A stretch of DNA of 64,000 nucleotides from NCBI GenBank assembly GCA_009664345.1, contig CP043547.1, positions 6,476,709 through 6,540,708 on the forward strand, in the 5' to 3' direction. The translations under genes were made by a program, and so were the position numbers. This document shows, piece by piece, positions 35,417 to 44,871 of the stretch (position 1 is its first letter; each line of letters begins with the position of its first letter). Below the pieces are notes generated by a model. The model made no database searches. It saw only the letters and a program-made list of their open reading frames with translations, and was not told where the DNA came from. The DNA is from Planctomycetales bacterium 10988 (lineage in GTDB: Bacteria > Planctomycetota > Planctomycetia > Pirellulales > Pb10988).

Positions 35417-35446
35417 TTGACAATCAACGGAATCCATGCTTACGAT
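35417..35446 (+). promoter_or_regulatory. Sigma-70-type promoter of the leu leader and leuA
   Basis: TTGACA (35417-35422), 18-base spacer, TACGAT (35441-35446). The expected start near 35453 lies about 55 bases before the leader-peptide ATG. Confidence 0.65.
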
Positions 35447-35506
35447 TGGAACAGTGGATGAGCTTTTTTGCTTTATCCCTTCCCTCAAACAACAAATGAA
35501 CGAACA

Positions 35507-35563
35507 ATGACTTACTTGCTTACCCTCGTATTACGACTAGAGCTACTACTCACCAAACGGTGA
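35507..35563 (+). CDS. leuL: Leucine leader peptide (18 residues)
   Basis: Reads MTYLLTLVLRLELLLTKR and a TGA stop. Eight of 18 codons are Leu (TTG, CTT, CTC, TTA, CTA three times, CTC), a proportion expected only in a leader that senses charged tRNA-Leu. It ends 31 bases before an intrinsic terminator and lies upstream of leuA, the same arrangement as enterobacterial leuL. No strong ribosome site precedes the ATG (only AACGAACA), which is a weakness; a TTG 13 codons upstream is an in-frame alternative. The peptide itself should have no function; its translation does. Confidence 0.8.
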   Translation: MTYLLTLVLRLELLLTKR

Positions 35564-35629
35564 CGAGGGGAAGTTGCGTCGACTTAATAACAACAAACCC
35601 TTGTGCCAGCTTGGTTCAAGGGTTTTTTT
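35523..35629 (+). promoter_or_regulatory. Ribosome-mediated transcription attenuator of leuA
   Basis: Segment 1 CCCTCGT (35523-35529, within the Leu codons) pairs with segment 2 ACGAGGG (35563-35569). Segment 3 AAACCCTTG (35595-35603) pairs with segment 4 CAAGGGTTT (35617-35625), followed by a run of T to 35629: an intrinsic terminator. The competing 2:3 pairing also exists: AGGGG (35566-35570) with CCCTT (35598-35602), and GTTG (35573-35576) with CAAC (35591-35594). A ribosome stalled at Leu codons would mask segment 1, allow 2:3 and so permit readthrough. Confidence 0.8.
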
Positions 35630-36028
35630 GTGTCAAAAATTCCCGGATCGTTTTGGTTATTTGGGTCATAGGATAGAAAAATATCTAAGTAGAAGTGAAA
35701 GCTGCATTTCAAGACTAGGATGCGAGTGCCTCGATGTTTAAAATCGGACGTGATCGGATTATTCGAGCCAAAGTGAAAGGGCTGGGCTACCCCCGAGCCA
35801 GCCTCTTACTATCGGACCGGTCTTTTGAGCAAAGATCTCGATATGAACGGAGATTGAGCTCAATGAGCTGGATTGGACTTTGGTGTACCGTGGCTCACTT
35901 CTATTTCTTTTGACGAGTCTCTTCTTTGAGAAATGAAGGATGAACCGCACTCGGATTGTAGAAAACCCCCTCCCAGAAGCCATTTAGAGATGGTTGCGAA
36001 ACCTGTTTAGGATAGAAAGTGGAATCCG
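35630..36028 (+). other. Long untranslated stretch between attenuator and leuA
   Basis: About 400 bases with no supported gene. GGCTGG and CCAGCC (around 35780-35805) can form a hairpin. The length is unusual for a leader. A second promoter could lie here, but I cannot identify one. Confidence 0.4.
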
Positions 36029-37603
36029 ATGAATGATCCCCGAATGATCAAGATTTTCGATACGACCTTACGTGATGGAGAGCAATCTCCCGGCGCGAGT
36101 ATGAATACCCAAGAGAAATGTGAAATCGCCAAGATGCTGGTGGAATTGGGAGTCGATGTGATCGAAGCCGGCTTCCCCATCGCCTCCGAAGGTGATTTTC
36201 AAGCGGTCAAGCTCATCGCCGATTCCGTTCAAGGAGCCACGATTTGTGGACTGGCTCGTTGCCGGGACAAGGATATTGATCGAGCCGCCGAGGCTTTGAA
36301 GAACGCCGGTTCCGCTCGAATTCATGTATTTTTGGCAACCAGCGCCATCCATCGCGAATTCAAACTCCGCATGGATAAAGATGAAATCATCAAGCGAGCC
36401 GTCGCTAGCATCCAACAAGCCAAGGGTTACTTCGACGATATTGAATTCTCTCCCGAAGATGCCTCGCGAACGGAACCGGAATTCTTGTGCGATGTCGTGG
36501 AAGCGGCCATTGATGCCGGAGCGACCACGATCAATATCCCGGATACGGTCGGATATACAGTGCCCGAGAAATACGCCCAAACCGTGCATTTGCTCAAAAC
36601 AAGAGTGAAGAATATCGATCAAGCTGTCATCAGTGTTCATTGTCATGATGACTTGGGTTTGGCGGTTGCCAATAGTTTGGCGGCGGTACAAGCGGGAGCC
36701 GGCCAAATTGAATGCACCATCAATGGAATCGGGGAACGTGCCGGGAATTGTTCTCTGGAAGAAGTCGTCATGGCGATGAGAACTCGGCAAGATTATTTCA
36801 AAGTCGATACGCGTATTCAATCGAACTTGCTGGTTCGTGCAAGTCGCATGGTTTCGAACATCACCGGATTGGAAGTACAGCGAAATAAGGCGATTGTCGG
36901 AAGAAATGCCTTCGCCCATGAATCCGGAATCCACCAAGATGGCATGCTGAAGAATGCGAATACTTACGAGATTATGCGACCTGAGGATGTTGGTTTTACC
37001 CAAACGGACCTGGTTTTAGGCAAGCACAGCGGCCGGGCTGCCTTGAAAAACAGAGTTCAATCGTTGGGCTATCACCTGACTGATGATCAATTGCAGTCCG
37101 TTTTCTTACACTTCAAAACTTTGGCGGATAAGAAAAAAGAGATTTACGATTCGGACATTGCTTCGTTGATTGAACAAGTGATGCACTCGGTCGCGTCTCC
37201 GCTCTGGACCTGGGTTGGCTACACGATGAATTCGCCAGAAGGCGAGATTCCCAATAGCAAAGTCGTCATCAAACGTGGGGAAGAACAGTACGAAACCATC
37301 GTGCCAGCCAAAGATGGTCCGCTGAATGCCATCTTCTTTGCGATCGAAGAGTTGACAGAGATTCCGGTGGTCTGCAATGAATATAGAGTGCATAGCGTTT
37401 CGACGGGGAAAGATGCCCAAGCGGAATCGACCGTCGTTGTTGAACACGAAAACGAAATCTATCGCGGCCGCGGGGTTTCGACGGATACCTTGGAAGCAAG
37501 TGCGATTTCATTTTTAAATGCAATCAATCAGATCGCTTATCGAAAGGCGAATCCTCCTAAGAAAAACAAGTTGGAAACCAAGATCGCTACCAAAGCGGTC
37601 TAA
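36029..37603 (+). CDS. leuA: 2-isopropylmalate synthase
   Basis: First committed step of leucine synthesis: condenses acetyl-CoA with 2-oxoisovalerate. 524 residues, type I (bacterial long) form. The catalytic barrel opens [16 protein letters not shown] and contains [12 protein letters not shown], the metal-binding [13 protein letters not shown] and NGIGERAGN, then the linker [12 protein letters not shown] and [10 protein letters not shown]. The C-terminal 120 residues are the LeuA regulatory domain, which gives leucine feedback, so control would be double: allosteric plus attenuation through the upstream leader. Start: ATG 36029, with only GTGGA nearby. It is followed by a terminator and tRNA-Leu(UAA). 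leuB, leuC and leuD are not in the window. Confidence 0.95.
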
Positions 37604-37880: not shown

Positions 37881-37965
37881 GCCGAGGTGGTGGAATTGGC
37901 AGACACAGTGGACTTAAAATCCACTGGCCCTTAGGGCCGTGCGGGTTCAAGTCCCGCCCTCGGCA
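37881..37965 (+). tRNA. tRNA-Leu (anticodon UAA)
   Basis: 85 bases. Acceptor GCCGAGG/CCTCGGC with discriminator A. The anticodon stem GTGGA/TCCAC encloses CTTAAAA, anticodon TAA. A long class II variable arm (TGGCCCTTAGGGCCGT) and a T arm with GTTCAAGTC confirm the type. CCA is not encoded. It reads UUA and UUG, two of the codons used in the leuA leader. Confidence 0.97.
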
Positions 37966-38023
37966 CTTCTTTTTTTGGCGTCTTTCGATCGCCTGATTGC
38001 AGAACTGCAGAAACGAGCACATC

Positions 38024-43505: not shown

Positions 43506-44786
43506 ATGCCAAACTTTCTTCCTTCGTCACGAATTTCATCCTTCTTGCTCGGTGCTTCATTAAGTGTTCTGCTTTCTCCACTGCTCTTTGCCCAAGAGGC
43601 ATGGACCGATTTTCGAGGGCCTTCCTCCCAGGGTATCAGCACTGCAAAAGACCTGCCTCTTCAATGGAGTGAGGAAGAAAACATCCGCTGGAAGCAGGAA
43701 CTGCCTGGCCAAGGGTGGTCCACTCCGGTGATTCTCGATGGTCAGCTTTGGATGACGGCTGCCAAAGAAGAAGGCCGCGAGCTTTATGCCCTTTGTGTGG
43801 ACGAAGCGTCGGGCGACCTGATTCATGAAATCTTGGTCTTTCAGGTCGAGAATCCTGAACCCATCAATGCAACGAACTCCTATGCTTCTCCTTCTCCGGT
43901 GATCGAGCCTGGTCGGGTCTATGTTTACTTCGGAACTTATGGAGTGGCCTGCCTCGATACCGAATCGGCGGAAATTTTGTGGAGTCGCCAAGACCTGAAG
44001 CTGGACCACAAAGAAGGTCCGGGGTCTTCGCCGGTATTGTATGAAGACCGATTATTCCTCACCTGCGATGGGATGGATGTTCAATATCTGATTGCCTTGG
44101 ATAAATCGAATGGCAAGACAATTTGGAAAACGGAGCGAACGGCGGACTTCACGGATGTTTTGCCTGATCGCCGCAAAGCCTATTCAACGCCTCTTGTTGT
44201 AGAAACCGACGAGAGAACACTCGTTGTCAGTACCGGAGCCAATGGCGGATACGCCTACGATGCGGAGACCGGGGAAGAAATTTGGAAGGTGCTTTATGAT
44301 GGCTTTTCCAATGTCTCTCGCCCAGTCCACAGCGGGGACATTGTCTATCTAAACACAGGCTACTTCCGTCCACAACTCCTTGCTATTCGATTAGGGGGAA
44401 TGCAAGAAGTCACCGAATCTCATTTGGTCTGGAGTGTGCAAAAATCAGTCTCGATCAAACCTTCGATCTTGAAGGTCGAGGATTTGATTTTCATGGTCAC
44501 CGATCGAGGTGGGATTGCGACTTGCCTCGATGCCAACACCGGCGAAGTCGTTTGGATGGAACGACTCGGGGGGAATTTTTCTTCGTCTCCGATCTATGCC
44601 AATGGCTATCTCTATTTTGGGGATCAAGAAGGAACGACTTCGGTCATTCGAGCAAGTCGAGATTTCGAGGTGATTGCAGAAAATAAACTCGATGAAGGGT
44701 TAATGGCTTCGCCGGCGGTGTCTGGAGATTCCCTTTACTTGCGAACGCCGAACTATCTCTATCGCATTGAGAAAATCCAAAAGTAG
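43506..44786 (+). CDS. Secreted PQQ-type beta-propeller protein
   Basis: 426 residues with a signal peptide (SFLLGASLSVLLSPLLFAQ). It opens WTDFRGPSSQGIS, a variant of the WxxFRGPxxxG start shared with the proteins at 18925 and 25524. Blades repeat with AEILWSRQDL, GKTIWKTERT, GEEIWKVLYD and GEVVWMERL. It is probably extracytoplasmic and probably a non-enzymatic propeller. No ribosome site is evident at the chosen ATG. A terminator follows, shared with the convergent PmoA-like gene. Confidence 0.84.
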   Translation: MPNFLPSSRISSFLLGASLSVLLSPLLFAQEAWTDFRGPSSQGISTAKDLPLQWSEEENIRWKQELPGQGWSTPVILDGQLWMTAAKEEGRELYALCVDEASGDLIHEILVFQVENPEPINATNSYASPSPVIEPGRVYVYFGTYGVACLDTESAEILWSRQDLKLDHKEGPGSSPVLYEDRLFLTCDGMDVQYLIALDKSNGKTIWKTERTADFTDVLPDRRKAYSTPLVVETDERTLVVSTGANGGYAYDAETGEEIWKVLYDGFSNVSRPVHSGDIVYLNTGYFRPQLLAIRLGGMQEVTESHLVWSVQKSVSIKPSILKVEDLIFMVTDRGGIATCLDANTGEVVWMERLGGNFSSSPIYANGYLYFGDQEGTTSVIRASRDFEVIAENKLDEGLMASPAVSGDSLYLRTPNYLYRIEKIQK

Positions 44787-44810
44787 TTTTTGATTGTTTG
44801 ATAAATAAAG

Positions 44811-44846
44811 AAAACCCCAAGGAAGCACGCCTCCCTGGGGTTTTTT
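44811..44846. terminator. Bidirectional terminator
   Basis: AAAACCCCA / TGGGGTTTT, with A and T runs on the two sides, between convergent genes. Confidence 0.85.
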
Positions 44847-44871
44847 ATTGATCGAGCTAGTTGTGACGGAA

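Follow-up and report, generated by a model that had tools for sequence, protein, structure and literature searches.

Is the leuA gene of Planctomycetales bacterium 10988 controlled by a leader peptide that reports the supply of leucine, and is such control shared by other planctomycetes? The question was raised by a stretch of 64,000 nucleotides of its genome (contig CP043547.1, hereafter the window), in which an initial annotation, made from the letters alone, had read every part of a leucine attenuator ahead of leuA. In enterobacterial leuL, a cluster of Leu codons including the rare CUA is combined with alternative 1:2, 2:3 and 3:4 stems and a U-tailed terminator, and leuA lies downstream. 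Here, the locus was compared with its relatives and with similar leaders of other genes. Conservation, covariation and the specificity of these sister leaders supported the attenuation reading, and it is very probable that the leuA leader senses charged tRNA-Leu and controls transcription by ribosome-mediated (translation-coupled) attenuation.

Structure of the leader region upstream of leuA

The genome consisted of a single contig of 6.65 Mb, and the bacterium was the sole member of its family among the genomes compared. The gene next to the leader (36029-37603; this and all leader features lie on the + strand) was confirmed as leuA, encoding 2-isopropylmalate synthase, by NCBIfam NF002086 (743.8 bits) and TIGR00973 (706.9 bits). 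The promoter sequence noticed in the initial annotation was present at 35417-35446, with TTGACA at 35417-35422 and TACGAT at 35441-35446 separated by a spacer of 18 nt. It matched at 10 of 12 positions, and transcription from this predicted promoter would start near 35453. In relatives, the -10 elements of promoter-like sites upstream of leuA leaders were clustered about 45-75 nt before the ATG, and the -10 of strain 10988, at -66 from the leader ATG, agreed with this position.

The leader peptide frame, MTYLLTLVLRLELLLTKR, was read directly at 35507-35563, from the ATG at 35507 to the stop codon TGA at 35561-35563. It contained 18 codons including eight Leu codons (in order TTG, CTT, CTC, TTA, CTA, CTA, CTA and CTC), three of them CTA, just as had been annotated; the CTA codons were located at 35537, 35543 and 35546. 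When the upstream region of 700 nt was shuffled with dinucleotides preserved, eight Leu in 12 codons were reached in none of 500 shuffles and seven Leu in 0.6%. No Shine-Dalgarno sequence was found before the leader ATG. The weakness of the ribosome site, which had been conceded from the beginning, was thereby confirmed, but it was usual for these leaders, a Shine-Dalgarno-like motif being rare before leuA (11 of 78), cimA (0 of 23) and DAHP synthase leaders (1 of 27). Precedents for a leader peptide without a ribosome site are the leaderless trpL of S. meliloti (PMC10117765) and, according to a title cited in PMC4046766, ilvB of C. glutamicum.

Based on folding, alignment and covariation, four strands were assigned. 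Strand 1 was placed by folding within the frame (35523-35554) and comprised CCCTCGT at 35523-35529 and TCACC at 35550-35554. Strand 2, the antiterminator strand GGTGACGAGGG (35559-35569; folding and covariation), overlapped the stop codon, and strand 3, AAACCCTTGTGCCA (35595-35608; alignment and folding), was common to antiterminator and terminator. Strand 4 together with the U-tract (35612-35629; folding and covariation) made up the 3' arm of the 3:4 terminator, with T7 at 35623-35629. The terminator sequence, AAACCCTTGTGCC...GGTTCAAGGGTTTTTTT, started 31 nt beyond the leader stop, in agreement with the initial reading.

When each segment was folded separately, the 1:2 fold (35519-35575, -16.7 kcal/mol), the 2:3 fold (35558-35608, -16.5 kcal/mol) and the U-tailed 3:4 terminator (35595-35627, -16.6 kcal/mol) were of near-equal strength. 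Two of the pairings drawn previously had to be redefined in part. The 1:2 hairpin was present, but was made of CCCTCGT at 35523-35529 with ACGAGGG at 35563-35569 plus a small hairpin beside the stop, which together gave the -16.7 kcal/mol. The 2:3 pairing also existed, as GGTgACGAGGG at 35559-35569 with CCCTTGTGCC at 35598-35607, and kept the GTTG:CAAC pairs stacked within it, but the helix was longer than had been claimed and its register differed by one base. The folding z score of the leader was -2.6, and none of 200 shuffles was as stable. In equilibrium folding of 35555-35635 the terminator was still favoured, and antitermination would therefore have to depend on kinetics, as it does in classical attenuators. 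The terminator of strain 10988 was not picked up by a simple terminator scan and was revealed by folding and alignment.

Conservation and covariation of the leuA leader in Pirellulales

Of 296 genomes of the order Pirellulales, 263 yielded a leuA gene, and the upstream regions of 105 distinct relatives in the order were examined in addition to those of other planctomycetes; the named relatives of the leuA of strain 10988 were likewise Pirellulales and other planctomycetes. At least six Leu in 12 codons were found upstream of leuA in 76% of the 105 relatives, compared to 1.3% of shuffles, and no enrichment comparable to that of Leu was found there for Ser, Arg, Ala, Val, Gly, Pro, Thr or Ile. 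A leader with at least five Leu preceded leuA in 88 of 106 genomes (strain 10988 included), representing 18 of the 20 families of the order; in family f7, a recognisable leuA leader was found in none of the three genomes examined (L204, L215 and L217). CTA accounted for 24% of the Leu codons in leaders and for 1.2% of those in leuA genes. In the window, the proportion was 2.9% in six genes and three of eight in the leader.

This conservation bears on the view that the hairpin terminates a separate short transcript, that leuA has a promoter of its own further downstream, and that the Leu-rich frame arose by chance. The untranslated stretch of about 400 nt between terminator and leuA (35630-36028) would allow for such an arrangement, and a promoter-like site, a weak 8-of-12 match, was found at 36008. 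However, the promoter scan of 35630-36028 gave only this match and no good promoter, the promoter and frame were placed as in relatives, and a chance frame was excluded by the occurrence in nearly all families. We consider this explanation extremely improbable. Within an attenuator at this locus, a second promoter in the stretch between terminator and leuA could still bypass the switch.

A terminator was located no more than 110 nt past the stop in 85 of the 88 leaders (median 35 nt), compared to 1.7% of shuffles, and the distance from the end of the leader frame to leuA was about 90-670 nt in relatives. Both observations argue against an arrest peptide or a small protein as the role of the leader, and against a frame that regulates the translation of leuA and not termination. 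A Pro-stop ending, which can slow termination, was found in 37 of the 88 leaders and would suit an arrest peptide, but this ending is explained by the pairing of strand 2 (GGCCxTAGGG) with strand 3, and the peptide sequences were unconserved apart from the sensed residues. An arrest peptide or translational control is accordingly judged very unlikely.

Alignment A1, composed of 69 leaders from plus-strand or explicitly oriented loci, had the consensus GGCC-TAGGGTTCGT ... AACCCCGAGGCC ... GGCCTCGGGGTTTTTTT, in which the TAG stop usually belonged to strand 2. Strand 2 covered the end of the stop codon in most leaders (leuA, 87%; cimA, 88%). In the 69 leaders, 91.4% of cells were paired in the 3:4 helix, 76.6% in the 2:3 helix and 61.4% in the 1:2 helix (the hairpin just before the stop), with 83, 37 and 47 double-change cells respectively, compared to 27, 21 and 30 in shuffles. 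For all three helices, neither the covariation score nor the number of double-change cells was reached in any of 500 shuffles, both being counted with no correction for relatedness. Slid registers of the helices gave lower pairing and lower covariation scores, and an anchored count with whole-strand shuffles agreed with the helix counts. The excess in the 2:3 helix was the most modest of the three because half of this helix is nearly invariant. An alignment of this kind had been proposed initially as a way to check the leader, and it favoured the proposal: the Leu frame and the T-run were conserved, and the stems showed compensatory changes.

Sister leaders upstream of cimA and DAHP synthase genes

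A covariance model (R1) was built on the Leu leaders and run on the genome of strain 10988, then more widely. In this genome the leuA leader scored 35.9 bits, and the upstream region of a citramalate synthase gene (cimA, identified by TIGR00977 with 659 bits) scored 37.0 bits. Citramalate synthase performs the opening step of a route to isoleucine. The match was an Ile-rich, attenuator-like leader directly upstream of cimA (1898306-1898387, - strand). Its frame ended in MLVAISILGKIAIPYSPVWP-stop, after which came GGCCTTAGG, CCCTGAGGCC and a hairpin with a U-tail; the antiterminator and terminator sequences were shared with the Leu leader. Across 68 genomes, Ile was enriched upstream of cimA with z 16-17, four Ile in 12 codons occurring in 44% as against 1-2%; a weaker signal was detected for Val, and none for Leu (z 1-2).

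Relatives also had R1 matches upstream of the DAHP synthase gene (NF006421), where MNCAYRYGFWFSFTGPFFTGPGAGGRA is one example of a leader. At least six aromatic residues (Phe, Tyr or Trp) in 12 codons were present in 83% of 30 such leaders and in none of the shuffles (z 25). In strain 10988, an aromatic-rich leader, MERIYLTPYFFWFYFYPMMVRGVARRT, followed by a strong terminator-like hairpin and a T-run, preceded DAHP synthase at about 4401990-4402073 (- strand) as a weak R1 match of 22.9 bits. The geometry of these leaders was unlike the leuA type, with strand 2 located 15-28 nt before the stop. In most of them the -10 ended 6-7 nt before the ATG, and because of this short distance their messages are probably leaderless.

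No matching codon enrichment was found upstream of trpE, ilvB and hisG, and these genes were rejected as further members. R1 matches at bidirectional terminators (6228411, 4176039 and others in the genome of strain 10988) were discarded as false positives, since neither a fitting leader nor an amino-acid gene accompanied them. At 44763-44849 of the window, weak R1 matches were observed on both strands, probably at a bidirectional terminator.

We regarded the amino-acid specificity of the leuA, cimA and DAHP synthase leaders as the strongest evidence. The three-way match of codons and pathways, together with the negative controls, would be hard to explain by any cause other than sensing of charged tRNA. 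It also speaks against a riboswitch or T-box that binds leucine or tRNA directly and in which the frame is accidental. A 5' leader with a terminator is what such an element would have as well, but here the scaffold was constant while the sensed codons varied with the pathway, and the rare CTA codons were enriched about 20-fold. Moreover, the Rfam covariance search gave no match at the gathering threshold or, for seven loci, at E ≤ 5, T-box and amino-acid riboswitches included, and no conserved aptamer was found in alignment A1 outside the three strands. The probability of direct binding is thus minimal, and a ribosome reading the leader codons remains the preferred sensor.

Distribution outside the order and association with tRNA-Leu(UAA)

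R1 matched at least once at E ≤ 0.01 in 153 of the 198 class-level genomes and in 110 of the 294 genomes from the phylum; many of the weak matches at these levels are chance terminators. Among the class-level matches outside the order, 15 of the 20 inspected preceded genes with the start motif of leuA or cimA or the AGPC motif of DAHP synthase, and seven of the leuA-type matches had a recognisable Leu-rich frame. The LeuA of one group (f97) was 74-80% identical to that of Limnoglobus, and this group is therefore Gemmataceae or close to it. A coordinated, class-wide attenuation regulon is likely in planctomycetes, Gemmataceae included, in which one scaffold re-keyed by its leader codons would control the enzymes that open leucine (leuA), isoleucine (cimA) and, in a variant geometry, aromatic (DAHP synthase) synthesis.

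A tRNA-Leu(UAA) gene was detected by tRNA search downstream of leuA (37881-37966, + strand). Of 36 leuA loci, 12 (strain 10988 included) had a tRNA gene within the searched flanks; in each case it was tRNA-Leu(UAA), encoded downstream of leuA in the same direction. No tRNA was found at 59 cimA and DAHP synthase loci. Possibly leuA and tRNA-Leu(UAA) belong to one transcript or operon under the same switch, which might then also regulate the level of a tRNA to which it responds.

Discussion

The sequence contained a frame rich in the residue of the pathway, an intrinsic terminator between frame and gene, and mutually exclusive 2:3 and 1:2 pairings placed for control by a ribosome, which are the features expected of an attenuator. 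In the mechanism proposed, RNA polymerase would start near 35453 and a ribosome would trail it on the leader frame. When Leu-tRNA is scarce, the ribosome would stall at the CTA/CTC codons at 35537-35551 and mask strand 1, leaving strand 2 (35559-35569) available to strand 3 (35598-35607). Their pairing would block the terminator, and leuA would be transcribed. When Leu-tRNA is ample, the ribosome would reach the stop and cover strand 2, which lies on the stop codon and would be hidden by a terminating ribosome; the 3:4 helix would then form and transcription would end near 35629. If translation does not occur, 1:2 would form and also allow 3:4.

If true, the regulon needs tight coupling of transcription and translation. 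The cell plan of planctomycetes has been argued to separate these two processes, and in Gemmata they are reported as spatially separated. Classical attenuation needs ribosomes close behind RNA polymerase, and a conserved attenuator therefore makes the question of coupling in planctomycetes directly testable. One RNA scaffold would serve different sensor codons, and an RNA family absent from Rfam may supply amino-acid-responsive control elements to bacteria in which engineering is difficult. According to a 2010 survey, which itself added Firmicutes, demonstrated cases of leader-peptide attenuation had until then come from Proteobacteria and Actinobacteria alone (PMC2965389). A leader shared by 18 of the 20 families of Pirellulales, and present also in Gemmataceae, would extend the mechanism to another phylum.

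Comparison with known systems

The planctomycete leader resembled enterobacterial leuL (leuABCD; Rfam Leu_leader) in its Leu-codon leader peptide, alternative stems, U-tailed terminator and downstream leuA. It differed in that the element of strain 10988 had no match to the Leu_leader covariance model, the Shine-Dalgarno sequence was lacking, strand 2 lay on the stop codon, leuA was far downstream, and the same scaffold was also used before cimA. Alphaproteobacterial leuA leaders (L029-L082) similarly had a Leu-rich frame before leuA, often ending in LLLLxRP-stop, but in most of them the same test detected no U-tailed terminator up to about 190 nt past the stop. A run of Leu codons in a short frame before leuA is also found in the actinobacterial LEU element and leuA leaders (PMC1262725, PMC4046766). 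By its published description, however, the LEU element is a pseudoknot in which the Leu codons pair with the leuA Shine-Dalgarno sequence (PMC1262725), whereas the planctomycete leader has an intrinsic terminator and antiterminator. In the aroR-aroF of Corynebacterium glutamicum, a Phe-Tyr-Phe leader before DAHP synthase responds to Phe limitation (PMC11802643); the planctomycete DAHP synthase also lies behind an aromatic-codon leader, known from sequence and mostly containing 6-8 aromatic residues in 12 codons. No earlier report of a Leu leader in planctomycetes was found in the open-access literature, as had been suspected initially; a Rhodopirellula-1 motif is named in PMC2864571. Taking these comparisons together, with the Rhodopirellula-1 motif standing outside them, the planctomycete leaders most likely represent a known mechanism carried by a new RNA family without an Rfam match, in what appears to be a new phylum for it.
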